From a virus, in IMG/VR virus record IMGVR_UViG_3300031823_000003, positions 22,325-86,324 of that record: 64,000 bases of DNA; one strand, 5' to 3'. The translations under genes were made by a program, and so were the position numbers. The number at the start of each line of letters is the position of its first letter. Positions within the stretch are counted from its first letter, which is position 1. Positions 1-32,344 of the stretch are shown piece by piece. The notes under the pieces were generated by a model. It did not search any database. It saw nothing but the letters and a program-made list of their open reading frames with translations, and had not been told where the DNA came from.

Positions 1-1824
1 GAGCAACTGTTTTTGCTCCGGAGTTTCGGCGGCACCCGGATCGCTGGACGCAGGCGTACCCGTGCTTGTCTTGGCAAACCGTTTCAGGTCGTTCGGCAGC
101 GGCTGACCGCTCATGTTCTGCTGCCAGTCGGCGGCGATACTCTCTCCGGCTTTGGTGGTCTCGCGCTGCACAATACCGAATAAATCTTTACGCTGATCTT
201 CCGGCAGCAGACCTTCGCTGGCAAGCGAATAATAACGCCGTAACTTATCCCATAGGCTACCCGTATGCTGTTCCAGTTGCAGTTCCTGTTGTGGCAAACG
301 CACGCTTCCGGGATTCATGGCGCGCACAGCGGCCACTACCATAGCCAAGTCTTGTCGGGGAGTGGCTTTGGCTGGATCGCTATCGACCTCTTTCATGTAA
401 TCTTCCTGCGCGTTGAGCAGGCCGAACAGTGGCTTCATTTTCTGATACGTAGTAGTCGTGGTCTGCTGTGTCTTGGCTTTGGGCTGAGATAGAGTGTGAC
501 CGATTACCCGGTCACCTGATACGCCTGCACCTGCTGCTGTCGGAGTTGATGCGGCTGTGTGTGAAGGCGCGGCAGCAGCAGTAGTAGTCGATGGCTTTGT
601 CGATCCGGCACTGGGTGTGTTACTAGGTGTACTGATCGTGCCACTCGGATGAACCGCTGGAGTCCCGGTCTTTTGCGGCGTCGTGGTCCGTTGCAGTTTG
701 ACCACGTGAATCTCGCCTGTCTCTTTATCCGTGTAGATGTAGTTTTGCTCACTGACTTTGCCCATTTGTCCGGACGCTACCCACGACTGGCGTAATTGCT
801 GTAACGACTCCGCGCTCAGTTCCTTTTCGGGGATACCCGCTTCCTTGGCGACCCGCTCAATGTACTCCTGTTCACTCCCCGGCTTGGCGATCTGCGATGC
901 AGGCGCACGGACCTCTCCGGCGTCAACCCAGTCCGACACTTTGCCGTCGGCGCTTTGATAGCGTTCGTATTTATGGTTATCAGGGCCGATACGGGTATCG
1001 AAAATTTTCTGCTTCTGGCTGTATCCGGACGCTGCTTCGCCGATACGATCGCGCAGTGATTGTACTTTTTGATCGTGCGCTGTCTTTTGTTCGGGTGTCA
1101 TCTGGGACGTATCCGCCATTTCCAGATTACGGAGATCGAGTTTGTCCTGAGTCAGTCCCTCAGCGAGTGCCTGGTCGCCGCGCATCAGTTTGAGTTGTTG
1201 CTGGTACGCGGGACTGGTATACATTGCAGCTTCGCCTGTGTAATCGGGACCAATCTTCTGCCGGATCATCACGGCGGCCTGCAACTTTTGTAATGGGTCG
1301 TTCGATGCCCACATGGCCAGCGGATTTTGCTGGTCACCGGATGCAGATGGACCCGCACCTGAGCCACTTGATTTGCTCTTGGACTTTTTGCCCTTGCCGT
1401 CCTGTTGCCCGAATAGATTCTGGTAGAACTGCTGTTGCACTTGCCATGCGGCGTCGGCTGCGGACTTGGCTTCCTGCACCTCTTTGGAATTGGGATCGGC
1501 ACCGGATTTCAGCATCCCCAGATAGTTGTTCCGCGCTGTCTGATAGTTGTAGTTGAGACCCTGTGCGAGACGTTGTTGCTTGTAGGCGCGGACCTGATTC
1601 GCGTAGTCTCTGCCCCGGAGAGCACCCTTGAGCAGGGAATCAACGACAGTGGCAACTTTGGTTATACCCGCGCCTCGCCCACCGATCAGCGATGGAGACT
1701 GAGGCTGGGCAGTATCCTGCTGCGGTACAGGCGGAGGAGCGGTGATCTCCGGAATCTGCGGCGGAGGGGGAGCCGTATAGGGTGTAGCGCTCGTAGGATC
1801 GTAAGCGGCTGGGTTTTGAGCCAT
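1..1824 (-). CDS. Large internal virion-like protein (3' end outside window)
   Basis: The frame is open for exactly 608 codons from an ATG at 1824 to the window edge, with no stop. The protein begins with a Pro-rich tail (residues 1-45). A helical, Gln/Lys-rich region follows, then a Lys/Ser-rich linker (about 155-170), a long charged helical region, a Thr/Ala/Ser-rich linker (about 390-440) and a helical C-terminal part containing NPGSVRLPQQEL. Helical, low-complexity proteins of this kind, last in a tail operon, are often internal or ejected virion proteins; that role is inferred. The start lies 14 nt after the stop of the upstream gene. No catalytic motif was seen in the visible part. Confidence 0.75.
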   Translation of the reverse strand, partial: MAQNPAAYDPTSATPYTAPPPPQIPEITAPPPVPQQDTAQPQSPSLIGGRGAGITKVATVVDSLLKGALRGRDYANQVRAYKQQRLAQGLNYNYQTARNNYLGMLKSGADPNSKEVQEAKSAADAAWQVQQQFYQNLFGQQDGKGKKSKSKSSGSGAGPSASGDQQNPLAMWASNDPLQKLQAAVMIRQKIGPDYTGEAAMYTSPAYQQQLKLMRGDQALAEGLTQDKLDLRNLEMADTSQMTPEQKTAHDQKVQSLRDRIGEAASGYSQKQKIFDTRIGPDNHKYERYQSADGKVSDWVDAGEVRAPASQIAKPGSEQEYIERVAKEAGIPEKELSAESLQQLRQSWVASGQMGKVSEQNYIYTDKETGEIHVVKLQRTTTPQKTGTPAVHPSGTISTPSNTPSAGSTKPSTTTAAAAPSHTAASTPTAAGAGVSGDRVIGHTLSQPKAKTQQTTTTTYQKMKPLFGLLNAQEDYMKEVDSDPAKATPRQDLAMVVAAVRAMNPGSVRLPQQELQLEQHTGSLWDKLRRYYSLASEGLLPEDQRKDLFGIVQRETTKAGESIAADWQQNMSGQPLPNDLKRFAKTSTGTPASSDPGAAETPEQKQLL

Positions 1825-1838
1825 ATTCTAATCCTGAT

Positions 1839-2462
1839 TTAGAACGCAGCTAGCGCATCCAGCAGGCTTGCCCCGCCCTGCTGGCTGCTTGCGATGGAAC
1901 CGATGGTGCCGCCTAGACTACCCAGCATACCGAACTGTTGGCCTTTCTCCTGTGCTTGCAGTTGCTGGCTCTGTATCTGTAACTGTCCCAAACTAGCTAA
2001 TCCAGAATTGGCGGTGCCTAGGCCGCTGATTCCTGTCCCCGCTGCACTGATGGACTCGCCGACGCCTTGACCAGCGAGTTGCCCCAGAGCGTTTGGAGCG
2101 GCCAGAGTGGCCCCGGATGCAGCAGAGGCTATCTGCGCGCCACGGTTAATATCGGTGGCCTCAAGTGCAAGATTTTTCTCGCCGCCTGCCGGACTGTTAG
2201 CGAGGATATTAGATTTAGCACCAGCGGTTGCCTGAGCGGTCTGTTGTGCGGCAGGCGCGATTGCCTGCATGATGGCAGCGGGATCGCCGCTAGCCAGAGC
2301 TTGGTATTTATCTTCGGCTATTTGTAGTCCAGGTTCGGTAAGCTGGTACAGTTGTTCGGCGTTCTTGGCCTGCCCCTGAGCAATGTTAACCAGAGCGGAT
2401 TGATTGCTCTCCATTTCCTGCTGGACCTGCGGCGTGAGTCCGGCTGGCTGTCCCTTGCCCAT
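1839..2462 (-). CDS. Virion-associated helical protein, Gln/Ala/Gly-rich
   Basis: This 207-residue protein has no signal peptide. It is rich in Ala, Gln and Gly, with helical segments (about 15-60 and 165-180), and ends in a glycine/serine-rich hydrophobic stretch. Its position between the acyltransferase-like gene and the large internal virion protein, together with its composition, fits a minor virion or ejection protein; I recognise no named family. The ATG at 2462 overlaps the 3' end of the upstream gene by 77 nt. An ATG at 2414 preceded closely by AGGA would remove most of that overlap and is an alternative start. Confidence 0.7.
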   Translation of the reverse strand: MGKGQPAGLTPQVQQEMESNQSALVNIAQGQAKNAEQLYQLTEPGLQIAEDKYQALASGDPAAIMQAIAPAAQQTAQATAGAKSNILANSPAGGEKNLALEATDINRGAQIASAASGATLAAPNALGQLAGQGVGESISAAGTGISGLGTANSGLASLGQLQIQSQQLQAQEKGQQFGMLGSLGGTIGSIASSQQGGASLLDALAAF

Positions 2463-3183
2463 TTGTGATCGAATCTCCAGCTAGTGCCAGCAGTTTACGC
2501 CGGCAGCATAGCTCAAAGTCTGCTCTGGTCAGCGCAGATACCGTACACTCTACCAGACCGCCATCGTGGGTGCGAAGCAGATCGGGGATATTGCCAACGT
2601 CCCTCGCGCCGTACTGCTGCATCCATTTCCCGGCTAAGATATTTGAGGTATAACGCTGGCCTAGGATCGTCCGCAATGAGTGTTGGGAGAACAGGTAGGC
2701 GAGACCGAGCATACCGAGGATAACGGATTCAGAGGTCCCCCACCAAGGCTTAAAGTAGCAAAAAGCTGCAAAGGCCGAGTTGGCAGATGGGGATAGGATA
2801 ATCTCCGTCGGCCAAGCGAATCCGGCGGGAGTAAACTCAGTGAGTGATGTGTGCTTGCATAATAGAATGACCTGACGGTTAGCCAGATAAGAGCAGATCG
2901 CATCCGCCGACAGATCAGCCATTCCGCAAAAAGTCTCCGGCAGAACTCCGTATGGAGATGATGGACGGGACAACAGGCATTGTGAATAGAGATAATGAAT
3001 ATAATTTGTGCCGAAAACTGGAACCCGCGTGCGGTCATAGGGAATGACTTGCAGATCGCCGAGTCGGTAGTTGTCCAGTTTGAGCGCGTCGATGATGGGA
3101 GAGTCACTCACTCGGCGCATCCTCATCGTGGCCGTCGGGAAGTTTATCCCAACCGTTTTCCATGCGGACAGCGTGGTAGTCAA
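2386..3183 (-). CDS. GNAT-like acyltransferase candidate, paired with an acyl carrier protein
   Basis: The 265-residue protein has the layout of a GNAT-fold N-acyltransferase. A central part could form the acyl-donor site (GLAYLFSQHSLRTILGQRY). It is followed by the typical helix and strand TSNILAGKWMQQYGARDVG (an Asn, then the helix before the 'fGar/fGF' strand) and a C-terminal pattern ALTRADFE, as in RimJ/L-type GNATs. Direct linkage to an ACP gene 36 nt upstream suggests acyl-ACP rather than acetyl-CoA as donor, as in the GNAT-fold enzymes HlyC and FeeM. That is inference; catalytic residues cannot be assigned by eye. The TTG start is supported by AAGGA 10 nt upstream; ATGs at 3126 and 3120 are alternatives without good ribosome binding sites. 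The last 25 or so residues look unstructured. Confidence 0.55.
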   Translation of the reverse strand: MTTTLSAWKTVGINFPTATMRMRRVSDSPIIDALKLDNYRLGDLQVIPYDRTRVPVFGTNYIHYLYSQCLLSRPSSPYGVLPETFCGMADLSADAICSYLANRQVILLCKHTSLTEFTPAGFAWPTEIILSPSANSAFAAFCYFKPWWGTSESVILGMLGLAYLFSQHSLRTILGQRYTSNILAGKWMQQYGARDVGNIPDLLRTHDGGLVECTVSALTRADFELCCRRKLLALAGDSITNGQGTASRTHAAGPAGNGEQSIRSG

Positions 3184-3219
3184 TGCTGCGGGTGTCCTTG
3201 CGTCTGATTCTGTGCTGGC

Positions 3220-3498
3220 TCATTGTGCGGCCGTCTCTGCTTCTGCTGCTATCGCTGACTTTTTATCAATCCACGCCTCGGCGTATCTCACGATCTGGTC
3301 CACGGTGACGAGCTTGAACAGGTCATCATCGGGAATTGGACCGATGGATAGTTTTTCATCCAGCGCAAGTGCCAGATGTACGAAATCAAGACTGTCCAGT
3401 CCGAGATCACCGATCAAAGTGGAATCGAGACTCGGCGATTTCCCTGATTCTTCGGCGACACAGTGCAGGACGATATTGACGACCTCATCGTGAGTCAC
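3220..3498 (-). CDS. acpP-like: Acyl carrier protein
   Basis: This 92-residue acidic protein contains the hallmark GLDSLD at residues 33-38. Ser36 is the expected phosphopantetheine attachment site at the start of helix II. The flanking LIGDLGLDSLDFVHLALALD matches acyl carrier proteins of fatty-acid or polyketide type, and the length fits a stand-alone carrier. A GTG start is preceded by GGAGAGG. It would need a host phosphopantetheinyl transferase, since none is seen here. It sits between a four-helix membrane protein (5 nt upstream) and a GNAT-like acyltransferase (36 nt downstream), which suggests it delivers acyl groups to that enzyme. An ACP in a phage structural operon is unusual. Confidence 0.88.
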   Translation of the reverse strand: MTHDEVVNIVLHCVAEESGKSPSLDSTLIGDLGLDSLDFVHLALALDEKLSIGPIPDDDLFKLVTVDQIVRYAEAWIDKKSAIAAEAETAAQ

Positions 3499-3503
3499 AG
3501 AGA

Positions 3504-3995
3504 TTACCTCTCCAGTAGAGTTTTGATCGTGTCGGCCAGTCCGAGTATGAATAGTGCTATCGACGAATACGCCAGCGCCAGTGTGGTCGCATATTTCGGA
3601 GCGGTGTAATTGGATGAACCAGTGTATTTGGCGTTCGGTGGCGGTGGGGCGTAGTCGAACGGCGGCGGCAAATTCTTTGGGTACTTGGCATGCAGGTACG
3701 CCTCATAGCAGACCGCCGTCCAGACATTGAACAGTAGAGCTTGAATCGCAGCCGCAATCAGCAGGGTAGCGGGTACAGGCTGACGATGATAAGCGCAGAG
3801 CAGAGCGAGTGCCAGAGCGACGCCGAATATGACGTAATAGAACCTGCGGAATAATGCGTAGGGCGCGAAGAACGATCCCCGGTCAGCGCCCCAGTCCATT
3901 TCGTAGACGCGGCCACGGAGACCGGCCCAGAATGAACTGCACAGACCGAGAGGGAGCAATATGACCAGAAGTATTATGAATAACGTGTCACTCAT
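3504..3995 (-). CDS. Membrane protein with four predicted transmembrane helices
   Basis: 163 residues. Hydrophobic segments lie at about 4-24, 52-68, 76-95 and 136-157, with a Pro-rich loop (PPPFDYAPPPP) before the last helix. The start has a good site (GTAGGAG upstream of ATG 3995). It lies only 5 nt upstream of the acyl carrier gene on the same transcript, so a joint role in an envelope-linked acylation process is plausible but unproven. I recognise no family. A holin or other lysis-related role is an alternative, but four helices and 163 residues do not favour a classical holin. Confidence 0.75.
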   Translation of the reverse strand: MSDTLFIILLVILLPLGLCSSFWAGLRGRVYEMDWGADRGSFFAPYALFRRFYYVIFGVALALALLCAYHRQPVPATLLIAAAIQALLFNVWTAVCYEAYLHAKYPKNLPPPFDYAPPPPNAKYTGSSNYTAPKYATTLALAYSSIALFILGLADTIKTLLER

Positions 3996-4005
3996 GCCTA
4001 TGCTC

Positions 4006-4284
4006 CTACGCTCTCCCTGCGCCCGGAATAAATTGTCCCGCTCCGGGTACTTGTATCTTCGGCGGGTCCAGTGCCTGGATCACACCTTCGATATTGATGC
4101 ATGCCGCCGCCAGTCCCTGCATAGCCGGATGATATACAGGCATATCGAATGACAGGAGCGCATTGCGGTAGGCGAGGCCGATGGCATCGCGGACCTTGCG
4201 CAGTTCGACAGCGAGAGCTTCGGCGCGGGGGCTGGGATCGATAGTGACGGTGACGGTGAGAGATTGTTGCTCGGTGACAGGCAT
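4006..4284 (-). CDS. Small conserved-looking phage protein
   Basis: 92 residues. A beta-type N-terminus (SLTVTVTI) is followed by a helix (about 18-48) and a second helical segment (about 52-72), ending in a Gly/Pro-rich tail. There are no Cys pairs or membrane segments. It lies between the ribbon-helix-helix gene and the membrane-protein/ACP cassette. Function not recognised. Confidence 0.65.
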   Translation of the reverse strand: MPVTEQQSLTVTVTIDPSPRAEALAVELRKVRDAIGLAYRNALLSFDMPVYHPAMQGLAAACINIEGVIQALDPPKIQVPGAGQFIPGAGRA

Positions 4285-6503: not shown

Positions 6504-9500
6504 TTAACCCGACACCAGTTCGCTTCTCTGATAACCCTTCGATCCCGGCCCGATAACAGGTTTTTGTTCGACCACAATTGGTGCCCAGATTTGCAGGTCG
6601 TTGTCCGCCGGATTAGGACTGGTACTTGCCATAATAACCCTGAACAGTCTTAGCTTCATAGCTGGCAAACGTTCCCGTACCGGGACTTCGATGCGATTGG
6701 GATTGGCCGGGAGAGTCAATGTGTAGTATGGCACACTCGATCCATCGGCGAAAAAGCTGACTACTACCGGGAGAGATGCCGTGTAGTCGATGTAAATTTG
6801 TTTCACCAGCTTGGATTCATCGCTGCCCCACTTGACGAAGTATGAGTCATAAGTGGCGCGCTGTTCGGGTAGGACGGCAATTTCGATGTCAGCTTGGTAA
6901 ATGATCGGCGCGGCGGTTACCGATCCTGTGATTACAAGGCTGGTGCGATAGGCTTCCACTCCATCGCCTGAGTTGATATCGAACTGGTATTTGGTGCGGA
7001 TAGTGCCGGTGAGCGTGCCCAGAGTGATCGGGGGTACTGAGCCGTTGTTGTCGTCGAACTGTAATTGGACGGTCAGGGTTTGATTGTTTGGATTTGCGTC
7101 TATCGCTAGGTTCTGGATTTGTTTCTGATTGTTCGGAGCGCCGAAGTCCAGAAATGGAGTCTGGAGATTAAGTGCAATTGGTATCTTGACCAGTGCCCCG
7201 CCGACCCAGCCGCCGTCATCGTAATCCTTGGTAATATCCTCATAGACGATCGCCCAGCCGGATTGCGATCCCGCTGTGATTGGGATTGAATAGACGAGTT
7301 GATTGGTGTCTTCCTCAGCCAATATAGCGGTTGCCGCAACGTCGTCATTGCGCCAGCGTTTATAGGACTGGCTCCAGCGTAGCCTGTGCTGGTTGCCATC
7401 TATGCCCGTATACACAAATGTAACCGTATTGTTCTTGAACGCCGACACCACATTGCCCAGCAGCGACAGGTTGACCAGTGGCACCGGAGTCAGCGGATTG
7501 TTGCGGTACAGCCACTCGATAATCAGCGACCGATAATCCGCCAGACTTCCCGAAAACGCCCTTATACCGTCGAAACTCTGTTCGTACACTTCGTTCTCTG
7601 TAATCGACCAGTCGAAACTCGCGGGCGATCCATGCTTCGATCCAGTGCTCTGCATGTATGGCGGCGATCCGGGGAATACCTGATAGTGGGACGAAAATGT
7701 ACGTACAAATATTGTGCCCCGGAAATTGTACACCGCGCTGATGGGGTCACTGGGTCCACCGGGACTGGGAATATAGTTCTGTGGCGGGCAGTTCTCCGGG
7801 TATCCGCGCGGAGTGTAGTAAAGCAGATGGGGATTGTTCGGGTCGCCCGCCAGCCAAGTTTGACCATAACCGGACGCTGCTAGATTGCATGCCACAGCAG
7901 GCTTCGAGAATACCTGTACCTGTTCGCCGATCGCATGCGGCAGGAATATGTAACAGGTGAACGTCCCGGTCCCGCCTGCCACGACAAATGCCTGCTCCAA
8001 GTTTTGTGGGGTGCCGATGACGACGATCTGGCCGACGAGGAATGTAGCGGTTGCGTTAGTGACATTGACAGTGACCAGCGTAGGAAAGTTTGTGCCAGCG
8101 GGAGCAGGAGCAAGCGCGCCTGTCAGTGTAGTCGCAATTGGATTCTGTAACGTGGATGTGACAGGCACGTCATTTTGTAGATTGAGAATGTTGCCTTGGC
8201 TCAGCGCGCTGTCAGGAAGAATGTACTGATAGCTGAATGTTCCTGTGCCCGTGACATTGGGGAATTGATCCGCATAATACCAGTTATTGCCATAGAGTCC
8301 GCCGCGAGCGTAGACACGGACATGGGTGACACGCGGATTGGGCGAGTACTGGCCGCTTAGATTGATTGCCTGGCGCAGCGGGACCAGAGTGGACTCGCCC
8401 CCCGGATTCGACGGCGTAATCGAAAACATTGCCTCCCAGCACCCATTCGACTCCGTCATCGTAGTGGCGTCGTAATACGTGTACCGGAAATCGTATCCGA
8501 CCCCGCCGTAGCTTGATGCACCCGCGTTTGTTCCTACACCTGATGCAGTCGGATTACCCTGAATATACAGCCCGTTAAACGCGATCGTCGTGGACCCCTG
8601 CGTGTTGGTGACTACCTGCACCTGCCATCCTGTGATCGCCGACCAGTCATTACCCGGCGTGCCCGCGTTGCCGACCGGCAGAAAGTCCCCCAGTTGCATG
8701 TAGATCACCGACCACGAACCTTGACCAGATGACATCTGCGACGGCTGGATTTGCGGCAGAGTGGGATCGTTGCCGGGGAGATTAGTAGGCTGACCCAACT
8801 GTTGCACGTTGGTGATCCCGGTGGCGAGAGAGAATACCTCATTGACCATCGCGGTGGTCGGATCGTTGGTTTGCGGGAGAGAGATATTCCCTTGGTAACT
8901 GACCGGGACGATTGTTTTCGAGTAGTAGTTTGCCGTATACCCGCTGCCATTGACATCGAATTGCACGCTGATCTGCTGCACGGCGGCGGGATTGGATACT
9001 TTCATCACCAGCACGATAAGGTCAGCGGGATTGTATTTGCCGAAATTGAGCGCGACGGTTTTGCCGACGTTGGTCGTGGAGTTAGAGGCGAAGGTGAACT
9101 GGACCTGCTTGAACACGAATGAGTCTGTCGGCGAATAAGCGTTGTTGAGCGCGACGATATCATAAGTGTTGTTGGCGCGATTAGTATTGAATTTGAGACG
9201 GAGAGCGGCGTCGGCCAGAGTGCCGGAGAGAGCGAGCATACCGTCGGGAGCGGCGGAATAAGAGAGAGTGGCATCGGTGTACTGGTCGTAGTTGCCCGAT
9301 AATATGGGCGTGGCAGATGTACCCGCGACAGTGGCAGCGGTAGAGAGCACGCCGGATACGCCGTAGCCGGATGCGGACTGGAACGAGTCAATCAGGGATA
9401 TTTGCGGCGCGTACTGAATAGCGGTAATCGGGACTACCGGAGGAGCGATGCCGATAGAGGTAGGGGAGCCGGTACCATTATCTTTGAGCGGATTGAGCGA

Positions 9501-9923
9501 GTCATAATGGAAAGTGAAGGGGGTAGCCGACCCAAAACACGTATTCACTAGAACCGAATATCGATTGCCACTAAGCCCAGAGGCAATTGCAGTATAGGGG
9601 CCTTGCGTGTCATTTGCTCTACGCCAAAGCGTACCATTAGAGAGCGCAGCGTACCTATAAGTGCTGCCGTTTAATCCCCGCATACGAGCCAACACCATAG
9701 GAGCCGAAGGTAAAAAATAATTTGTTCCAGATGGAGTACCGTCTGGCGATCTGTTGATAATAGTGCTGCCAAATCTGCTGCTTAGACCATTTTCCTCTCT
9801 CTCTAGAACACTATTCATATTCAAATAACAATGAGGTGGTGTTTGATCTGTGACGTTACGAGCAATAAGGCCAGTGCTCTTAAAAATCCACGATTTTGAT
9901 TCGTATTTTGTATCGCTGGCCAT
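6504..9923 (-). CDS. Nozzle/tail-hub-like large structural protein
   Basis: About 1140 residues, the largest non-exported structural protein. The N-terminus (NMNSVLEREENGLSSRFG, then RYAALSNGTLWRR) resembles the start of T7 gp12 / P22 gp10-type nozzle proteins, where short phrases on 'source' and 'reading' strands form a beta-propeller-like body. The rest is beta-rich with many Gly, Asn and Thr. ATG 9923 is chosen; a GTG at 9956 is possible but has no better ribosome site. Assignment as a short-tail component is inferred from size, composition and absence of long-tail genes. Confidence 0.6.
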   Translation of the reverse strand: MASDTKYESKSWIFKSTGLIARNVTDQTPPHCYLNMNSVLEREENGLSSRFGSTIINRSPDGTPSGTNYFLPSAPMVLARMRGLNGSTYRYAALSNGTLWRRANDTQGPYTAIASGLSGNRYSVLVNTCFGSATPFTFHYDSLNPLKDNGTGSPTSIGIAPPVVPITAIQYAPQISLIDSFQSASGYGVSGVLSTAATVAGTSATPILSGNYDQYTDATLSYSAAPDGMLALSGTLADAALRLKFNTNRANNTYDIVALNNAYSPTDSFVFKQVQFTFASNSTTNVGKTVALNFGKYNPADLIVLVMKVSNPAAVQQISVQFDVNGSGYTANYYSKTIVPVSYQGNISLPQTNDPTTAMVNEVFSLATGITNVQQLGQPTNLPGNDPTLPQIQPSQMSSGQGSWSVIYMQLGDFLPVGNAGTPGNDWSAITGWQVQVVTNTQGSTTIAFNGLYIQGNPTASGVGTNAGASSYGGVGYDFRYTYYDATTMTESNGCWEAMFSITPSNPGGESTLVPLRQAINLSGQYSPNPRVTHVRVYARGGLYGNNWYYADQFPNVTGTGTFSYQYILPDSALSQGNILNLQNDVPVTSTLQNPIATTLTGALAPAPAGTNFPTLVTVNVTNATATFLVGQIVVIGTPQNLEQAFVVAGGTGTFTCYIFLPHAIGEQVQVFSKPAVACNLAASGYGQTWLAGDPNNPHLLYYTPRGYPENCPPQNYIPSPGGPSDPISAVYNFRGTIFVRTFSSHYQVFPGSPPYMQSTGSKHGSPASFDWSITENEVYEQSFDGIRAFSGSLADYRSLIIEWLYRNNPLTPVPLVNLSLLGNVVSAFKNNTVTFVYTGIDGNQHRLRWSQSYKRWRNDDVAATAILAEEDTNQLVYSIPITAGSQSGWAIVYEDITKDYDDGGWVGGALVKIPIALNLQTPFLDFGAPNNQKQIQNLAIDANPNNQTLTVQLQFDDNNGSVPPITLGTLTGTIRTKYQFDINSGDGVEAYRTSLVITGSVTAAPIIYQADIEIAVLPEQRATYDSYFVKWGSDESKLVKQIYIDYTASLPVVVSFFADGSSVPYYTLTLPANPNRIEVPVRERLPAMKLRLFRVIMASTSPNPADNDLQIWAPIVVEQKPVIGPGSKGYQRSELVSG

Positions 9924-9975
9924 GTTAAAATGATTCCAGTGCGGCCTGACCCGCACGTCCTATGGGAGTAGGAAC

Positions 9976-13908: not shown

Positions 13909-16900
13909 CTAGTGATCCGTCCAAGTCTCAATCCATCCGAAATCCGCCTGCGCCGCCACGCTGGCGCTGCCGTTGTTGGTGATGAACTCTCCGGCGCGCA
14001 GAGTCGCTGTAGGCAGAGTCGTAGTGATCGGCGAGCTACATTTCGATACGCCGTCGATGTAGAAGTACCACTTGGAGTTCGCCGTGTCTTCGCGGATATC
14101 AAACACATGCGGCGTGCCCGCTACCACGGCAACGCCGCTATCAACTTGAGTCTGGGTTCCAGTCCCGCCAGCATTGGTGGTACATAGAAAATCAGTCGAA
14201 CTAACTGCGCTGGTAGACGAGTAGGTGAAAGCCGCGCAGTGAAACGTCGAGCAGGTATCCGTACCGCCTATATTCGCGGTAGTTGTGTTCGTGAATCCCA
14301 GCCACCAGCGTGTGGTTGCTAGAGTGCCTACCGCCGCATAGGCATTGAACCAGATGTTCACGGCTCCCGGTATGTAGACGGCTGACCCGTTGACGTTGGA
14401 TACGTTTCCGTTTGTAACAGTAGTCAGGCAGGCCAGCATCTGACTGGCTGTGGATGTCGGCACAATAGCGCTGGAAGTCGAGCAAGTGATAGCCAGCGCA
14501 TCATTGTTCAAGAGAACCGAAGAGGTTGCCGCGCCGCCCGCATATGTCGTCCAGCGATGGTAGCGCAGCGCCTGCGATCCCGGCATGTAATACATGCCGT
14601 TCAGCGTGCCGTTCTGGGAAATCACGCGGTTATTGGAGACTGTGGCTTCCACTGAGTTGCCAGCGACGCTGGCTGCCGGGAGCGCGTTCAATGGGCTGTT
14701 GGTCAGTGTGTCTGTGAAAGTGTTGACCCCGGAGCCGCCGACCAAGGCAGTGCCCCACTGGCCGGTGACTGAGGGCGCACCCGTCGCCGTGCTCCATGTC
14801 CATTTGAGATCGAACGTATGAGCGATTGTGGTGTTGATCGCTGTAGTACCAGAAACCGCTAGCGACCCGCCATTTAACGTAATGGTGGTTGTGTTCGTGG
14901 GCAGCAGTTGCACCGGGCAGCCAAACGCATATGTCCCGCTGACGCCCGCCGTGTAAGTGGTCAACTGGCACTGCACCGACCAGCTGCCATTGGTGACCGC
15001 AGTGCTGGGAACAGAGAACGCTCCCGTGGTGGCGATCTGTGCGCCATCGACGAACGCAGCAATGGTTACTGTGCCCGTATAAGAGGCTGGCAAAGTATAA
15101 ATGCCTCCGATGTCTATGTTGAGCGGGGAAGTGGCGACCAAGTTACCGGCGGGGATTGTCTGTGCGCCGCCCAGCATGGAAGTTGCAGTCGTACCTGTAT
15201 TGGTAGTCGCGATAGTGACATTGAACGCGGAAGAACCGATGCCGATTATCGCGCATCCCGAACAGGACGTGACCGTAAGAGCGCCCATCTTGACGTTGCC
15301 GCTGGTGTTACCCTGCGCACCGTTGCCGATGTCGAGAGTCCCGGCGGATTCGCGTGAGATGCCCACGTCATTGACTCCGCTGCCGTTCGTCCAACCCAGC
15401 ACTCCGCTGGTCGTGATATTGCTGTCAAACACTGTCCCCGGCCCCGACTGGTCGCCGGCGTAGGTGACATCGAAGTCCCATTGGGAAGCGGAGTCCAGGA
15501 AATAGATATTCCCGGTGATGTTGTTGTTGAATACTTCCGTGCAGTGATGGCCCCCGTTGATCCGGCCTGCGACATGCATGCGGCCCTGGTTATTGGCGAC
15601 TGTGTGGTAGAGGCCGATACAGTCCGCGACGGCTGGCCCGACGTTCCATGCCAGGTTGGGCGCTTCCAGATTGCGCACGTTCTGCACCGCCATGTACTCG
15701 GAACCGGGCTGCTGCGCGGCGTTGCCTTCGATATAGCTGTTGTCGATGTGGATGTTGTTAAGCGTGCTGCCGCGTCCGGCTGCGCCATTGAGATCAATAA
15801 AGCAGCCGTTGCCGCCGACGCATCCCCAGTGGGCGCTACCCGTGGTGGTAATCGGCCATCCGGCGACTGTGGTGACATAGAGCACGGTGGATGTGGGATC
15901 GACAGCCAAAGAACTGCAACCCAGATAGGATGGCCCACATATCGTGGCCGCGACGCCATTTACCCAGAATAATTCCCCGGTGTGAGCGGTATTGAAATTA
16001 AAAGTCGAACCGCCGTTGAGCGTAACCTGATTGCAGTTCGTGCCACAGTTGACGGTAGTGACCTTTTCCGTCATCGTTACGCCGCACATGGTCACACCGT
16101 CGAACACGCCCATACAGCCGTCGCCGCCATTCAGGTTGGTAAATACATATCCATCCCCGGAACCGCCCGCTCCTCCGAACACCGCGTAGTCGATGGAGTT
16201 GACCTTGCCGCCGGAATAGGACTTTGAGTTGTCAAGGCGCACGTTGTTGTTGTCTGCGACTGACCCGCTGGTGGCGTCTTCAAAGGTCCAATTGATTGTA
16301 TTGGCGATGCCTTGGATATTGACGTTACGGATGTCTGTATTGCCCTCGACGGCGTTGATGCACACGATTCCGCAGGTGATGACTGACGTGTTGGTGGGCG
16401 CGATCTGCAAGCCGCTCATGTTGAATGAGGTTTGCAGGCCGGTGGTGACGGAATTGGTGATGACGGCGGTGCCGGTGAAGCCGATGGTGGTGGTGATAAG
16501 AGTGCCCGAGCTTAGATTTCCTGGCGAGTAACCGACTAGATTTCCGTTTTGCCCGATGGAGAAACAGGCGCCAGCCGTAGTGTTACATTGAATATTAGCA
16601 CCATGCAGATACATCGTGACCGACTGCGTTGTAGAACCGATGACCACATTCGTGGCCGTAACAGGCGTAGAAGAGAGCGGAGCATCAATATGAACGTTGC
16701 AGGGCAGCGTGGGAGTAATATTGCATAGTGCCTGCATGGAATCAACCGTGAAGCCGGGGAAGAGAACAGAGTGAAACTCCGGAATCTGCGTTTTAAGCCC
16801 GCCCACCCCACCGCCGATCGGCTTCCCCTGCGTGAGGGTAGTATTCGTTTCAGGCACAGTGAGCGTCTCACCCGAGGCATTGAGTTGCCGCGTCCAGTTG

Positions 16901-19626
16901 GTGCCGTTCGGAATCGCGTTGAGATAGTCGCTGATCGAGGTGGCGGCGCGAGTATAGTAACCGCCTGCGGCATCTGCACCGATCGCCGTATCACTTGCAT
17001 CTCCTGACGCAACTGCCGCCGTAGCCGCTGACTTCGCGGGGTTGGAATCCACCAGCGTAATAATGTCGTTCGGCGGTGAGGCAAAGGGGCCAAAGTTAAT
17101 ATCACCCTTGGAGTTTAGTGTTTTCCCGGCAGGCTGAAACAGATCAGTCCACTGATTGGCATTGGTTTTACCGAGACATGTCATTCTTGCGGGAGAGCGA
17201 AAAGGCGCAGTTCCGCCTTGGCTGCAAGTCGGAGCCACGAAAGATATACCCGTAGGCCCCAGCGTAGAAACTGTGCCTAGGGCAGTTGATCCGAAATCCG
17301 CCTGGATCGGAGTGTTTGCGTCGTTAACCAGATTAGCTGGCCAGAACCAAAAAGCGGTCTGAAAGGTAGTCGTGGATGGCACCGTATAAGAACTGGCGGA
17401 AGCCTGCGTATCGGTAAAACTGCAAATCCCCGCCGTATTACATGACCCGCTGATGCCGGTAGCGATGGCAAAGTTTCCCGTTCCAAACGGCGGCACAGCA
17501 GACGACCCGACTGTCACTAACACATCCCAGGTCAATGTTCCGATGGAGGTATGGGCCAACCCTTCTTGTAGATCAATCGAAGGCCACTGGAGAGGAATAC
17601 TCACAGCGCCACTGGTAGGCTGTGCAAAGCCAATGAACAGCGGTGGATTAGCGCCGTATACCGAACCATGCGGTACCACAAAATAATTGCGTTGGGTTGT
17701 GGGACTACCGCCACTCGCAAATGTTGGAACCGCGCCGGCAATGGGGAACGTTCCTACTATCTTGGAGCCGAACTGACCACCAGCTAGCAGCATACCCATC
17801 TGCGCGTTGGTGATGCCATACAGAGGGTTCGTTATACCGCCCTGAGCCTCATAGATATTGCTCATCGTGCCCGATACGAACGAGCCGAAATAGCGGATCC
17901 CGAATACCGGGTTAGCCTGGCAAACTGTGTTATCGATTGATACACCGTTACCGGCATTGCCGGAGTCATAGCAGTTGATATTGGTCAACTCGGTGTTGTG
18001 AATGTACATGATCCCGGCGTTTCCGGAATCGGTCCGGGAATAAAAGAAAGCTCCTATAGGCCAGTTCGCTGTGGTTTTAATGACCGCTGTAGAGCGGTTA
18101 GTAGCTCCTGTAATCTGAAGCTGCTGATCGTTGTCGTCCACAACGCCATAGCTGAATGCGCCTGTCGCTGCCGAGGGAAACAACTGGATCAAGTGGAGAT
18201 TGTCGATGATGACGTGGTCGGAAGCGTCTTCGATCGCGGCGTTTTCTATCCCGGTGAAGCCGAATGTGGTATCGCCCGCTGAGAATGTACTGCTGCCCAG
18301 CGAAACTGTATAACTGGTCGAGCTCGGCGTGGTGAGCACCGTGGCAATGAATTTAGAATCTGTCGTCTGGGAGTGGACTTCCACCGCAGCCTGATCGCCG
18401 ACTACAAAGGGGTGAGTGGTTGCCGTAGTGATTGTGATTGTGCCGCTGCTTGCCGATGCACTGGAAATCTGAGCGCCGTCTATGTTCAGTGTCGATCCCA
18501 TCGAGAGATTAAAGAGCTTGTGGTAGCCGATCCCAGTAGGAGGGCTGCCGACGTAGATGCACCGGTCACGGGTGGAGCAGGCAATGAATGCGCCTGCGCC
18601 GTCCAGCACGCCGCCGCGTCCACGCATGTATACAGTGGCATACACGCTGTAGGTTGTGCTGCTCATTAATTTGACGTAAGGCGAGGCTGAATTGCTGGCA
18701 TCGTGCGGAGTGTCCGAGGTCCATGCGTCGTTCCACGCTTCCTGGATACCGGAAGATGCGGAGCCGACCGTGTACCCGGCAGAGTGCGCGTTGACAGTGA
18801 CGCCTGTGATGGTTCCGCTGCCTACCCCAGCGGTACAAGTGCCGCCTGTGACTACAATCTGTTCCGGGGTGCCGGTGCCCGCGATCCGCACCGGGTAGAC
18901 GTAGTTATTGGCGGCGGAATTGGTATCGATGCCAAGCGGACAGGGGGCTAAATGGATCGTAACCGCTCCCGGAACAGTGAGATTGTCCGAAGGCGATTGC
19001 GACCAGTTCCATGACGGCGTGACGTTACGGACGAAATTCTGGTTGTTCATGGTGAACGGGGTGCTCTGACAGGGCGACCCCGAACAGGGCTGTATGATGT
19101 TTTGCGCGGCAACGGGGATTTTATTGACATCGCCGGTGCCGGCGGTCGCGCACACCCATGCGGAGCCATTCCATTGAAGGACTTGGGAGGCAGAGCAGGT
19201 GGTAATGAGACTGATGGGGACCGTGCCGCTGGTTCCGCCGCCAGTCAGACCTGTGCCGGCGGTGACGCCTGTGATAGTGCCGCCGCCGCTGGACCCGCCG
19301 CCTGTATTGCACACCCATGCGCCGTTGAGATATACGGCGATGACTTGAGAGGAGCCGACGGTGCAGGGATTGGAACTAAGAGAGCAATTGGAGCACAGGA
19401 CGGTGGTGCCGGGCTGGGGAAATGGAGTGGAAGTGATCTGGTCGAAGGTGAGCGGTCCGGTGTAAAGGCCGAGGGTGAAATCGTTGGGAGCGGTCCACAC
19501 ATTGGGCAGGTCTGTTGCACCGTAAGAATGCTGAACCTGAGTTTGCGCCGCAATCCCGATGAATAAAAATATTGTTGCCAGCCCCAAACGGACGAACCTG
19601 CCCATGCCCGTACTCATGCGTTTCAC
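13909..19626 (-). CDS. Giant exported adhesin/fibre-like protein with signal peptide
   Basis: 1905 residues. The N-terminus is a Sec signal peptide (basic MKRMSTGMGRFVR, hydrophobic LGLATIFLFIGIAA, then Gln). The body is rich in Thr, Ser, Gly, Asn and Val, fitting a beta-helix or beta-solenoid fibre: pectate-lyase-like turns of the type NNVRLDNSKSY and NTDIRNVNIQGI in the middle, and a jelly-roll-like C-terminal part (about 1780-1905: TPHVFDIREDTANSKWYFYIDG). It may be a carbohydrate-binding or depolymerase-type appendage. A signal peptide is unexpected for a virion protein, since virions assemble in the cytoplasm; the product may instead be exported to the host surface. Confidence 0.75.
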   Translation of the reverse strand: MKRMSTGMGRFVRLGLATIFLFIGIAAQTQVQHSYGATDLPNVWTAPNDFTLGLYTGPLTFDQITSTPFPQPGTTVLCSNCSLSSNPCTVGSSQVIAVYLNGAWVCNTGGGSSGGGTITGVTAGTGLTGGGTSGTVPISLITTCSASQVLQWNGSAWVCATAGTGDVNKIPVAAQNIIQPCSGSPCQSTPFTMNNQNFVRNVTPSWNWSQSPSDNLTVPGAVTIHLAPCPLGIDTNSAANNYVYPVRIAGTGTPEQIVVTGGTCTAGVGSGTITGVTVNAHSAGYTVGSASSGIQEAWNDAWTSDTPHDASNSASPYVKLMSSTTYSVYATVYMRGRGGVLDGAGAFIACSTRDRCIYVGSPPTGIGYHKLFNLSMGSTLNIDGAQISSASASSGTITITTATTHPFVVGDQAAVEVHSQTTDSKFIATVLTTPSSTSYTVSLGSSTFSAGDTTFGFTGIENAAIEDASDHVIIDNLHLIQLFPSAATGAFSYGVVDDNDQQLQITGATNRSTAVIKTTANWPIGAFFYSRTDSGNAGIMYIHNTELTNINCYDSGNAGNGVSIDNTVCQANPVFGIRYFGSFVSGTMSNIYEAQGGITNPLYGITNAQMGMLLAGGQFGSKIVGTFPIAGAVPTFASGGSPTTQRNYFVVPHGSVYGANPPLFIGFAQPTSGAVSIPLQWPSIDLQEGLAHTSIGTLTWDVLVTVGSSAVPPFGTGNFAIATGISGSCNTAGICSFTDTQASASSYTVPSTTTFQTAFWFWPANLVNDANTPIQADFGSTALGTVSTLGPTGISFVAPTCSQGGTAPFRSPARMTCLGKTNANQWTDLFQPAGKTLNSKGDINFGPFASPPNDIITLVDSNPAKSAATAAVASGDASDTAIGADAAGGYYTRAATSISDYLNAIPNGTNWTRQLNASGETLTVPETNTTLTQGKPIGGGVGGLKTQIPEFHSVLFPGFTVDSMQALCNITPTLPCNVHIDAPLSSTPVTATNVVIGSTTQSVTMYLHGANIQCNTTAGACFSIGQNGNLVGYSPGNLSSGTLITTTIGFTGTAVITNSVTTGLQTSFNMSGLQIAPTNTSVITCGIVCINAVEGNTDIRNVNIQGIANTINWTFEDATSGSVADNNNVRLDNSKSYSGGKVNSIDYAVFGGAGGSGDGYVFTNLNGGDGCMGVFDGVTMCGVTMTEKVTTVNCGTNCNQVTLNGGSTFNFNTAHTGELFWVNGVAATICGPSYLGCSSLAVDPTSTVLYVTTVAGWPITTTGSAHWGCVGGNGCFIDLNGAAGRGSTLNNIHIDNSYIEGNAAQQPGSEYMAVQNVRNLEAPNLAWNVGPAVADCIGLYHTVANNQGRMHVAGRINGGHHCTEVFNNNITGNIYFLDSASQWDFDVTYAGDQSGPGTVFDSNITTSGVLGWTNGSGVNDVGISRESAGTLDIGNGAQGNTSGNVKMGALTVTSCSGCAIIGIGSSAFNVTIATTNTGTTATSMLGGAQTIPAGNLVATSPLNIDIGGIYTLPASYTGTVTIAAFVDGAQIATTGAFSVPSTAVTNGSWSVQCQLTTYTAGVSGTYAFGCPVQLLPTNTTTITLNGGSLAVSGTTAINTTIAHTFDLKWTWSTATGAPSVTGQWGTALVGGSGVNTFTDTLTNSPLNALPAASVAGNSVEATVSNNRVISQNGTLNGMYYMPGSQALRYHRWTTYAGGAATSSVLLNNDALAITCSTSSAIVPTSTASQMLACLTTVTNGNVSNVNGSAVYIPGAVNIWFNAYAAVGTLATTRWWLGFTNTTTANIGGTDTCSTFHCAAFTYSSTSAVSSTDFLCTTNAGGTGTQTQVDSGVAVVAGTPHVFDIREDTANSKWYFYIDGVSKCSSPITTTLPTATLRAGEFITNNGSASVAAQADFGWIETWTDH

Positions 19627-19687: not shown

Positions 19688-22495
19688 TCAGTGCTGTGTC
19701 TGTGTGGTTTGCAGGAACGCGGCGTTCAGTGTGGACAGATTGACGCCATAGTCGGTGCCATCGGACGCCGAGTTGTGATAGACACTGGTGGGAACCAGAC
19801 CATAATTACCGATGCTGGCGTCATTTGGGTCAAATGCCGCGCCGTTCATCATCCCTATCATGCCGATACACGCTGAGGTTGCGGTCGATCCGGGGCATAC
19901 CGTGGCAGCGGGAAATGTCAGGGTGCACGTTGCGGAGCCGCAATTGTTCCCGGCGTTGACGCCGCCGACCTCCATATATTTTGCCGAACATCGACCGGGA
20001 AACGGGTTGTAGGTCACAGTCGAGTTCGTGGTATCGACTTCATTTTCTGAACATCCTATTGCTGATGCTCCGGATGCACAGCCCTCGACGTTGCCATCGC
20101 CTTGTGCAACCCAGCCAGTCCAGCCTGTGCCGGGAGTAGCTGGGCACGACGGCGCGGAACTGAGGTCGAACGCAAATAGGTTGTTCTGCCAAGTTGCGTT
20201 TTGCAGGAATTGATTCGCCGGACATGTGCCCATCTGCTCGACAGTGCCGAATCCGGATGCAGACTCGGTTGCACCAGTTTGCAGCCAAGTGATGTTGCCG
20301 CCGGATTGACCCGCGTAATAGAACGTCCCGTTGAGATCAGATGGCGTCATGCCACTGACTTCGACAATGATCTCGGTAGTGCCAGCGGCGACAGGCCACC
20401 CGGTAAGACTGGGAATAGTTGCGGTGACGATGCCACCAGAGCGCGATAATACTGTCGGTGTTTGAGCGTGCGTCGGGCCGGGGCAGTTAGTACCCGTGTC
20501 GCTCCAGATCGTGGTCGCGGTGCCAAAGAACATGCGGCCATTATTCTTGGCTGCGTCCGTAGTCTGCATGACGAGTGTATTGTGGGTGAATTGTAGGTAA
20601 GCGGGGACGCCTTCCATATTTTGCACAACGCAGCCTGTCGCACTGGATGAGCTGGCGGACGGTTGAGAATAGACGACGGTCAGTCCATACGGGTTAGTGC
20701 CGGAGAGAGCGATAGCGCCACGGGACGTAGAGAGAGTGAAATTGTTACCTGTTCCTGTTGGCGAATTCCAAGTTGAGTCCGAGCATCCGGTCACGAGCAC
20801 CGGATCACCGGGGAATATCTGGGTTTCTTGTAGACCCGCACCGCCGTTACCGCATACAAGTGAGACTGTCCCACTGGTCTGTGTACCGTTGCAAATGAAT
20901 GCCTGCCCGAACCCAGTGACCTGCATCCCGGACGGAAATGCCACTATGCCGGATGCGTCGTACACGCTGGAGTTGCCGAGATCGTAAAGGAGATTGTTCG
21001 TGATATTGATGCGGCGTGATGCCCCGGCAGTGCCGCCGCCGTTGCCGATGGTGTAGTTGGAGCGGCCAATCATGGATAGTCCCGTGAGCGCGTGGCGGCA
21101 GAGATTGTTGCGGTAGGTAATGTCGGTGATGGTGGCGGTGTAGTTATCGCATGGACTGGTGTTCGAGCAATTCCGGGGATTGGCGGTAAAGCACTGCCCT
21201 TGCTGCGCGCCGGAAGTGTCCGAGTATTCGACGATATTAGTGTCGTACAGCACACGCTGTGCGGTCTTGAGTTCAGTGCGGTTCTTGAGATCGAGAGAGG
21301 TAGCGCCTGTGTATGCCGTGCCGACCCATGACGGAGGCTGCGTGAAGCGATTGTGCCAGAGATCGAGATCGTAAGCGTAATAGTTGGAGTCCTGGCTGGA
21401 TACGCCGCCGACAAAGAACCCGCTGGATGCCCCGGAGATCCATGAATTACCAAGGAAAAATGGTCCGGGAGTCTCGGCGATGGCGACGGCATGGCCTTCG
21501 TTGGCCGCGCGAATGTCGTAGTCGATATAGGTGTCGGTGATCCCGCAGCGGCGGCAGTTGGCCATATGCATGAAGGTTGAGATTTGGTTAGTGCCGGGGC
21601 CGCCACTGTTCGATGAGGTGACGCATGAGCCTGTGCCTGTAGCTGTGGTACACCAGTCCTTGGCATCGCCGTGGCCGTAGATGCCGACGAACCAGATGTC
21701 CGAGGCGGTCTGGGATACGAGAGTGTGCGGCGTGCCGTAGGCGTCTACATCGGTGTTGATGACATTGCCCGCGAGGGTGACGGTGGTCTTGGGCCGGAAC
21801 TCAAAGTACATAAAGGCGTAATGTGACGGTCCGATATTGGTGGTTGCGTCCCATGTGCCGGATTGGATCAGTAGTCCCTGATTACCGGGAGTCCAGTTGC
21901 CCTCGAATGTAGGCATGGAGCCAATGTCGTTGGAGCAGCCATTATTACCGGATGACCACCATGTAGAGATGTCGCCTGATGGCGGCTGACGAGTGGCAGT
22001 GGCGTCGGTGATCCCGTGCGAGCAGACGGTCTGGCCGAGAGTGAGCGGAGTGTCGGACTCGAATACGATAAATTTAGCGGGGGCTGATCCACTGACTATC
22101 TTAGTTACCAGTGTCAGATTGACAAACGGTCCTTCTCCCTGAGAGCACGTGTATCCCGGCGTCTGCATGGAGATTAGCGTTCCGTGCGTCACTTGGATCA
22201 GCCACCACTGGTCGGCGGCGGCCACCCAGTCACAGATATCTTGTTGCAGGTTGGCAAATGTTGTGGCCGTGCGCGTGACATCGAATACGCCGCCGGGAGG
22301 AAATATTTCGGCAGGTTCGCCGAGCGATGTGAGCGGGATGAATTGTGGGAGGGCGGCAGTGGTCAAGTTGGCATTGCTGAGCCGGATGTTATTGCTGATC
22401 CGGGTGCCGGGAGTAACGCGCTCTTGAGCGCTCAGCGATACGTGCAGCAAGACGACAACCAGAGCCATCGCTACCGACTTGGCCACCATCTTCAT
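19688..22495 (-). CDS. Exported right-handed beta-helix-like protein
   Basis: 935 residues with a signal peptide (MKMVAKSVAMALVVVLLHVS, cleavage near SLSA-QE). The middle (about 230-560) has parallel-beta-helix character: CGITDTYIDYDIRAA, LDLWHNRF, VLYDTNIVEYSDTSG, ITDITYRNNLCRHAL, NITNNLLYDLG. This is seen in polysaccharide lyases and tailspike-like enzymes. About 700-765 it carries the same kind of module (LSRSGGIVTA... LNGTFYYAG... WLQTGATESASGFG) as two tail proteins. The ATG overlaps the stop of the phosphoesterase gene by 4 nt. A polysaccharide-binding or degrading role is likely but no catalytic residues were assigned. Confidence 0.72.
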   Translation of the reverse strand: MKMVAKSVAMALVVVLLHVSLSAQERVTPGTRISNNIRLSNANLTTAALPQFIPLTSLGEPAEIFPPGGVFDVTRTATTFANLQQDICDWVAAADQWWLIQVTHGTLISMQTPGYTCSQGEGPFVNLTLVTKIVSGSAPAKFIVFESDTPLTLGQTVCSHGITDATATRQPPSGDISTWWSSGNNGCSNDIGSMPTFEGNWTPGNQGLLIQSGTWDATTNIGPSHYAFMYFEFRPKTTVTLAGNVINTDVDAYGTPHTLVSQTASDIWFVGIYGHGDAKDWCTTATGTGSCVTSSNSGGPGTNQISTFMHMANCRRCGITDTYIDYDIRAANEGHAVAIAETPGPFFLGNSWISGASSGFFVGGVSSQDSNYYAYDLDLWHNRFTQPPSWVGTAYTGATSLDLKNRTELKTAQRVLYDTNIVEYSDTSGAQQGQCFTANPRNCSNTSPCDNYTATITDITYRNNLCRHALTGLSMIGRSNYTIGNGGGTAGASRRINITNNLLYDLGNSSVYDASGIVAFPSGMQVTGFGQAFICNGTQTSGTVSLVCGNGGAGLQETQIFPGDPVLVTGCSDSTWNSPTGTGNNFTLSTSRGAIALSGTNPYGLTVVYSQPSASSSSATGCVVQNMEGVPAYLQFTHNTLVMQTTDAAKNNGRMFFGTATTIWSDTGTNCPGPTHAQTPTVLSRSGGIVTATIPSLTGWPVAAGTTEIIVEVSGMTPSDLNGTFYYAGQSGGNITWLQTGATESASGFGTVEQMGTCPANQFLQNATWQNNLFAFDLSSAPSCPATPGTGWTGWVAQGDGNVEGCASGASAIGCSENEVDTTNSTVTYNPFPGRCSAKYMEVGGVNAGNNCGSATCTLTFPAATVCPGSTATSACIGMIGMMNGAAFDPNDASIGNYGLVPTSVYHNSASDGTDYGVNLSTLNAAFLQTTQTQH

Positions 22496-28700: not shown

Positions 28701-28839
28701 CAATCGGAGAGGTACCCGTGTAGGTTGTGCCACCGCCTGCACCGCCTCCGCCTCCGGATTGCTGTGCGGATACGTACGCACTGCCGAACAGACCCAAGGA
28801 AAGCACGGCGACGGCGACAGCGGAGATGATTTTTTTCAT
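25765..28839 (-). CDS. Giant exported fibre-like protein with internal repeats
   Basis: 1024 residues. Signal peptide MKKIISAVAVAVLSLGLFGS with a VSA-QQ cleavage site, followed by a Gly-rich linker. The body contains repeats of the type SPATISAAGVIACATC and SPVTVSGAGLIAISG (about 365-450) and GNTTSGTVTL-type turns, as in tail fibre shafts. The C-terminal about 150 residues (from AYIDFPDVKTIPAANC) form a compact beta domain, possibly the receptor-binding tip. It was clearly shaped by phage-fibre modules yet carries an export signal. Confidence 0.72.
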   Translation of the reverse strand: MKKIISAVAVAVLSLGLFGSAYVSAQQSGGGGGAGGGTTYTGTSPIVVTGSVISCPTCGTSTANVSTSGTITPGQIAIWASTTSIKSLAVSGDGTLSSSAVLTVKGINGTLLSGLSTGILKNTTTSGVPSIAASADVIALFSGTCSVSTYLRGDGACAAAVIGATSGGGLTGTTTLGLLTSCSTNQVLAWNGSAWACATPASSGANTALSNLASVAVNTPLLVASAGASGLGTAATPFGELNATQVTNTDSVVFAYIPTVSNTGFLFEGKSNSANTNVDVFTVDQTGNIINGGSDSVGTSLSVGTTGTFGSTVQIGSAGSLGAACPSTVTALCWTAGSTSPTPTAGIDILWPNSGTNTIQASQNGGSFFSIGSVTSIATTPPITGGTITGTGTIACSTCATTTNGGALTATSPATISAAGVIACATCVTSSGGGAMTATSPVTVSGAGLIAISGVTSEQGNGSKLQLSTGTTTTNDCVKFDANGNTIDAGAACGSGGAGTSALAAVTNTTSVTQSNPTAATDVQLMELSLAASYLNSAGQPFAIHGSGVLSTTTASTPQVTITAKLCSVSGCGSGTVTPLAAIQSSALNTVAITNASWNYEIIATTVGTGASCNLIVKGAPGLTIENGASLAAADSVYTDSNTAVSSPNQTCTNALFIDFFVQQSATGASNSYKQLLGAIMPQGGGPVVSVSGDGTLITNSASTSAVTLALGNAGAHKWWGNNTGSTAAPGYQTIGTADLPTIPIAGGGTNATSAATGQIPNTTSTTATSWTSTPTLGASGTAGSIAFGNATSGTVTLQPVTGALGSVTASLPASTGTLDVFASTTTTANKVVVSTATAGANAYIDFPDVKTIPAANCNNTTAGAGWSIGSGGTVTCRVGTNNKSGFVAITDTSSTFAQFSVVIPEDWDSASNPFIRFQVASTDTTSGHTIIPAIQVSCAKGDGTTTDDVTFNASHSLSTITLNTTANQFWSNSNVQMNSTDMTGCVAGALMIVQVGRATDTATQAAFVSATVTFPRLIVVQAN

Positions 28840-31915: not shown

Positions 31916-32344
31916 CTAATTTCCGATGATCGTCAGAAACATACTGTACGGGTTATTATGAGTTCCGCCGAAGTATGTCGTATCCAAAGTCACCGCATTA
32001 CTAGCCGTAACGTGAATCGTAGCAGGAGCCAGGCCGTTACCCGAACCACAACTAGCGGCACCCCCAGACTTGGAATTAGCCCCGGTATCGTCTGTCCAGT
32101 TAAGTTGATAGCTTACCGTCGTTCCGCCAGAACACGGGGTGTTTAATATTTCGGTGTAGATGAAAATTGTGTAATCTCCATCCACAGAAGGAGTAAACAG
32201 CGTATCCCCAGTGACAGATGACGTTGAACTGACTAGGGAAAATTTGGAGTAGCTGAACTGAGTGGTAGCAGCGGCATGTAATCCCAGATAACTTAATCCG
32301 AGAAGCGCAATCACCAACAGACCAGCAAAGTACCTATTATTCAT
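31916..32344 (-). CDS. Small exported beta protein
   Basis: 142 residues with a signal peptide (MNNRYFAGLLVIALLGLSYL, cleavage near LHAAA). The mature part is about 115 residues of beta structure (DGDYTIFIYTEILN, TVSYQLNWTDDTG, SMFLTIIG) with two or three Cys. It lies between two capsid-decoration-like genes, so export of this product contrasts with its cytoplasmic neighbours. Function unknown. Confidence 0.65.
   Translation of the reverse strand: MNNRYFAGLLVIALLGLSYLGLHAAATTQFSYSKFSLVSSTSSVTGDTLFTPSVDGDYTIFIYTEILNTPCSGGTTVSYQLNWTDDTGANSKSGGAASCGSGNGLAPATIHVTASNAVTLDTTYFGGTHNNPYSMFLTIIGN

Follow-up and report, generated by a model that had tools for sequence, protein, structure and literature searches.

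An acyl carrier protein gene beside a GNAT-fold gene in the ejection module of a short-tailed soil phage

Organization of the locus and its acyl carrier protein

The DNA analysed here, referred to as the window, is a stretch of 64,000 nucleotides that forms part of an IMG/VR virus contig of 86,324 bases. According to the ORF map, the virion genes lie on the minus strand and run leftward, in the order 744-aa terminase-like protein, portal and adaptor proteins, capsid protein, tail-fibre region, 1150-aa protein and, finally, the cassette described below. The portal and adaptor proteins are SU10-like and the major capsid protein is of the podovirus type; the source phage is a short-tailed soil phage. 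The cassette encodes an acyl carrier protein (ACP), a GNAT-fold protein and a membrane protein, and adjoins genes for two further virion-region proteins (Table 1). Pfam searches gave no match for the 623-aa and 1150-aa proteins, and the ORF maps of relatives show a comparable large ORF at the place of the latter. The membrane protein has no family match in Pfam or PHROG. For the GNAT-fold gene, the GTG start at 3111 (241 aa) appears more likely than the TTG at 3183 (265 aa), because homology begins at the former and because the putative 39-aa ORF at 3104–3223 overlaps the ACP stop and the GNAT start.

Table 1. Features of the cassette and of its surroundings (positions in the window)
Feature	Position	Strand	Basis
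Virion-region protein, 623 aa, starts at 1824 and extends beyond the window start; T7 gp15 / P22 gp20 position	1..1824	-	ORF map
Gly/Ala/Gln-rich virion-region protein, 207 aa	1839..2462	-	adjoins GNAT in 22/22 viral contigs
GNAT-fold acyltransferase-like protein, 241 aa, GTG start at 3111	2386..3111	-	AlphaFold, Foldseek, phrog_4470
Putative 39-aa ORF, overlaps ACP and GNAT genes (ATGA at ACP stop)	3104..3223	-	sequence reading
Acyl carrier protein (ACP), 92 aa, GTG start; Ser36 codon 3391-3393	3220..3498	-	PF00550, phrog_5934
Membrane protein, 163 aa, 4 hydrophobic segments	3504..3995	-	hydropathy; kin in 13/22 viral contigs, window included
Small protein, 92 aa, kept upstream of the cassette in relatives	4006..4284	-	ORF maps
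Large tail-region protein, 1150 aa, T7 gp12 position	6504..9956	-	ORF map

Several other genes of the window carry recognizable features. A 132-aa ORF near the terminase gene (39646–40044, minus strand) encodes an arginyl-tRNA synthetase N-terminal domain (PF03485, 2.6e-7) without the synthetase core, and a HerA-like ATPase (DUF87, 2.4e-7) is encoded at 47331–49214 (minus strand). Signal-peptide-like starts, unusual for tail-fibre genes, are present in the large virion-region proteins encoded at 13909–19626, 19688–22495, 22492–24399, 25765–28839 and 31916–32344; the third of these, on the minus strand in the tail region, matches the phosphoesterase/phospholipase C family (PF04185, 2.6e-33).

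The ACP matches PF00550 (E 3.8e-9; 37.1 bits, with the cut-off at 20.8), the acyl carrier protein family phrog_5934 (7.5e-7) and ACPs from the PDB (best E 7e-8). Its attachment serine, Ser36, lies in the DSL-type motif GLDSLD and is invariant among eight aligned phage ACPs, so that the clear ACP which an earlier note on this DNA had recognized by the same motif is confirmed. The GTG start codon is preceded by a Shine-Dalgarno-like GGAGAGG. Single-sequence searches with the ACP or with the GNAT-fold protein against viral contigs, phages and the PDB returned next to nothing, and a tblastn search of phages with the ACP of one relative, G029, returned no match. The relatives of the GNAT-fold protein were reached via the capsid protein and via the protein encoded downstream of the GNAT gene.

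ACPs are known auxiliary genes of phages (PMC8224337, PMC11705849, PMC5463345), and an Acidobacteriota-linked viral contig carrying one has been reported (PMC11924767). Those of Erythrobacter phage R6L, Alteromonas phage R22Y and roseobacter prophages belong to the same protein family as the window ACP, and in three roseobacter prophages the gene is grouped with fabG and fabF (PMC8224337). For none of these ACPs is a pairing with a GNAT of the virion module described. When the phage ACPs of MW202777 and R6L were inspected for GNAT neighbours, the gene after the ACP in R6L was found to encode a RusA resolvase, in contrast to the GNAT-paired ACP of the window.

The GNAT-fold protein and its position in the virion module

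As a single sequence, the window GNAT-fold protein matched no family in Pfam or PHROG and none of the GNATs in the PDB. With 15 relatives, AlphaFold predicted a structure with a pLDDT of 89.3 and a pTM of 0.82, in which strands and helices follow the canonical GNAT order; with only five sequences, the pLDDT was 40. Foldseek comparison with the PDB ranked PA3270-type and RimJ N-acetyltransferases first (E 2e-9 to 3e-8), RimJ being a protein N-terminal acetyltransferase, and its viral neighbours include a DUF2824 protein (P22 gp14 family) and a T7-like 'internal virion protein A'. The GNAT-fold features that had been read earlier in the gene beside the ACP are thus recovered in the predicted structure, and the lack of such a fold, which had been named in advance as an outcome that would tell against that reading, did not occur.

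Five residues, R153, N157, G168, S192 and R196, are conserved in 21–22 of the 22 aligned rows of the family; they include the Asn that precedes helix 4 (N157, 21 of 22) and a glycine kept throughout (G168, 22 of 22). In GNATs, the Q/RxxGxG/A loop binds the pyrophosphate of CoA. This canonical loop is absent from all 15 members used for the prediction, which carry a Trp loop in its stead (Tyr in one), and across the 22 rows the replacement loop has Trp, with Tyr in two. Loss of the canonical CoA loop could even signify lost catalysis. We considered the Trp loop as a mark of ACP use and rejected it: a similar Trp is found in phrog_4470 GNATs that have no annotated neighbouring ACP, and the loop is therefore not an ACP adaptation.

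A match to phrog_4470, 'acyl-CoA N-acyltransferase', was obtained at E ≤ 1 for seven of the 15 members, with 1.5e-4 as the lowest value (the window protein is not among the seven), and hhalign comparison of the family with six phrog_4470-type GNATs gave P 1e-5. The phrog_4470 GNATs of Bcep22-like and related podophages (BcepIL02 gp65, LASTA gp05, BUCT555) share with the window family the gene slot, a similar Trp loop and a weak sequence similarity. In BcepIL02, LASTA, Rhizobium TM27A, MW202489, BUCT555 and ppBjS10J-1, the GNAT gene is flanked by the tail genes on one side and by the gene for the next virion protein on the other, and in phages of this type its stop often overlaps or touches the next start, likewise in the window. 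They differ from the window family in size, being about 95–160 aa long whereas the latter is longer by roughly 60–100 residues, mostly N-terminal, and in that no ACP gene is annotated beside them.

The position of the window GNAT gene also corresponds to those of T7 gene 13, which sits between genes 12 and 14, and of P22 gene 14, just before gene 7; unlike the window, the gene lists of T7 and P22 contain no ACP in this region. Profiles give no link here, as neither PF11090 (T7 gp13) nor PF11039 (DUF2824, P22 gp14) matches any of the 15 members and hhalign of the family against T7 gp13 or P22 gp14 was not significant. A possible correspondence to T7 gp13 of a GNAT in this place is already in print for the cobavirus protein pc40 (PMC6775973). 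The GNAT gene appears to belong to the core of the ejection module, at the place of T7 gene 13 and P22 gene 14. This point was absent from the earlier note, whose placing of the cassette among virion genes is borne out by the ORF map and by synteny in relatives.

Co-inheritance of the cassette genes

The distribution of the cassette genes was followed in 22 viral contigs that carry the protein encoded downstream of the GNAT gene, the window included; two of them, G021 and G022, are apparently identical here. A GNAT gene is present in all 22, each time preceding the gene for this small virion-region protein, and an ACP gene in 12, each of which has the GNAT. The ACP gene lies directly upstream of the GNAT gene in seven (window, G003, G009, G013, G020, G029 and G030) and elsewhere in five (G010, G017, G019, G031 and G032), with a DnaB-like helicase gene beside it in G017 and G019 (L073, L072). 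The seven adjacent cases form one clade (support 95/96); in three of them the end of the ACP gene runs 4, 8 or 17 nt into the GNAT gene, and adjacency is kept across GNATs just about 37–58% identical to that of the window. Since relatives keep this arrangement, the tightness of the cassette is not due to chance.

The ACP might nevertheless be an auxiliary metabolic gene that aids host lipid synthesis during infection, its adjacency to the GNAT gene being a frozen accident of one insertion. Such a role would agree with the phage ACPs cited above, with the derivation of all adjacent cases from one clade and with the helicase gene as neighbour in two relatives. We regard it as distinctly unlikely, given that adjacency persists over the range of GNAT divergence just mentioned, that the two genes overlap in three relatives, that an AcpS-family gene was sought in the contig and none found, and that no ACP occurs without a GNAT among the 22 contigs, a set collected via neighbouring virion genes in which ACPs of unrelated phages therefore could not appear.

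In the other 10 contigs, no ACP was detected. Some of these are fragments that have ACP-bearing close relatives; four measure 93–101 kb, and a five-row clade with contigs of up to 101 kb seems to be without ACP. The GNAT therefore does not need a phage ACP. This bears on a second alternative, in which the GNAT-fold protein has no catalytic role and serves the ejection proteins as assembly factor or chaperone, the way T7 gp13 is commonly portrayed, with the ACP as a binding partner or stabiliser at most. PF11090 indeed goes by the name of 'probable scaffold protein' (DUF2824, the P22 gp14 family, is named as of unknown function), and the missing CoA pyrophosphate loop would fit a protein of this kind, as would the contigs with GNAT and no detectable ACP. 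Against it, the near-invariance of R153, N157, G168, S192 and R196 seems to exceed what a bare scaffold would need, and a dedicated upstream ACP with an invariant Ser36 is maintained throughout a clade; we consider an assembly factor rather unlikely, though a rival to be taken seriously.

The membrane protein gene is found in 10 of the 12 ACP-bearing phages, being absent from G013 and G020, and also in three contigs without ACP; the resulting association with the ACP (10/12 against 3/9 distinct ACP-negative rows, Fisher p 0.03) is confounded by ancestry. The earlier note had described a tight three-gene cassette and proposed co-occurrence in other phages as a check on it. The ACP–GNAT part holds, as relatives keep the arrangement and the ACP never occurs without the GNAT (12 of 12), whereas the membrane gene is more loosely associated: its absence from two ACP-bearing contigs means that 'three-gene cassette' overstates its role, and the GNAT itself is found without detectable ACP in 10 of 22.

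Some further variation was seen among the relatives. The ACP motif of G019 is GSLE instead of DSL. Small, seemingly unrelated genes lie between the ACP and GNAT genes in L032 (4626–5194, minus strand) and L033 (6590–6957, plus strand), making the ACP–GNAT gap a possible insertion hot spot. The contig L070, labelled Verrucomicrobia, has the GNAT, the membrane protein and the downstream protein; the phage group may extend to Verrucomicrobia, or the bin may include a stray phage contig.

A candidate acyl acceptor and a possible acyl transfer

The gene downstream of the GNAT gene (1839–2462), whose start overlaps the GNAT end by 77 nt, occupies the T7 gp14 / P22 gp7 position. Its product is similar to Tunturi gp35 (P 2e-4) and has no profile similarity to T7 gp14 or P22 gp7. 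Within its family, Gly2 is near-invariant (M-G start) and a Lys follows within a few residues, the remaining N-terminus being variable; a GGEKNLA motif is invariant in 15 members. Because it always adjoins the GNAT and combines the near-invariant Gly2 and nearby Lys with the invariant GGEKNLA, this protein is the likely first candidate for an acyl acceptor. On insertion into a lipid bilayer, T7 gp14, the protein of that position, produces a channel (PMC8954989), which makes the attachment of a lipid to a protein of this sort plausible.

We tentatively propose, as a reading that is quite possible though short of probable, that the cassette represents a modified form of the podovirus ejection module, in which the GNAT-fold protein uses acyl-ACP to acylate the first ejection-type protein, the product of the next gene downstream. 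The GNAT-fold protein would be the counterpart of T7 gp13, P22 gp14 and the phrog_4470 'acyl-CoA N-acyltransferases', whose gene immediately precedes that of the first ejection (internal virion) protein, and in one phage clade this gene would have gained an ACP of its own. Host AcpS would place phosphopantetheine on the phage ACP, host fatty-acid synthesis would load it with an acyl chain, and the GNAT would pass this chain on to a virion protein, for which the 1839–2462 product is the first candidate. The lipid might then aid the entry of the acylated protein into the host envelope during DNA delivery, and phages without ACP could draw on host ACP or CoA. The analysis shows the ACP with its attachment serine, the GNAT fold, the synteny and the co-inheritance; catalysis, acyl-ACP as the donor, the target and the effect are inferred. 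In its general form, namely that podovirus ejection proteins are fatty-acylated and that the gp13/gp14-type GNAT-fold protein is the acyltransferase, with acyl-ACP as donor and a dedicated ACP in some phages, the proposal is unlikely.

Phage ACPs, GNATs adjoining internal virion proteins and the GNAT/gp13 equivalence are already known; the conserved ACP–GNAT pairing in the ejection module appears to be new, not being described in the literature and collections searched. An ACP kept coupled to the likely counterpart of T7 gp13 and P22 gp14 hints at acyl transfer for these poorly understood genes. If this is true, T7 gp13 and P22 gp14 would gain a biochemical function, phage-encoded lipidation would join virion assembly, and some phage ACPs filed as metabolic helper genes would become parts of that assembly. 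The acyl-transfer hypothesis is open to direct test in T7 and P22.

FeeM and LuxI are GNAT-fold enzymes that use acyl-ACP. The ACP–GNAT pair might, as they do, make a small N-acyl signal from acyl-ACP, such as an N-acyl amino acid or a compound of the acyl-homoserine-lactone type, and the donor partner is present. Such a product is very improbable, as the GNAT gene lies in the virion module and is retained by all relatives, with or without ACP; moreover, none of the acyltransferase or autoinducer-synthase families, FeeM and LuxI included, gave a Pfam match at E ≤ 10 in the 15 members, and the best 50 PDB folds are mostly RimJ/PA3270/SpeG-like acetyltransferases, none being described as FeeM or LuxI. 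Membership of the FeeM or LuxI families receives no support from any profile tested. The toxin acyltransferase HlyC has a catalytic His (His23), a GNAT-like fold and acyl-ACP as donor (PMC8339906). The lack of a PF02794 match at E ≤ 10 in the 15 members and of a conserved His among the near-invariant columns of the 22 speaks against HlyC/RtxC membership of the window protein. The window pair shares with HlyC/RtxC and FeeM the GNAT-like fold and the acyl-ACP theme, and differs in family, in the conserved His and in gene context. The likeness to HlyC and FeeM drawn in the earlier note thus holds as an analogy, the nearest folds being of the RimJ/PA3270 type; its reading of an acyltransferase working with an ACP is supported as regards the ACP, the GNAT fold, the placement and the co-occurrence, and membership in either family is not supported.
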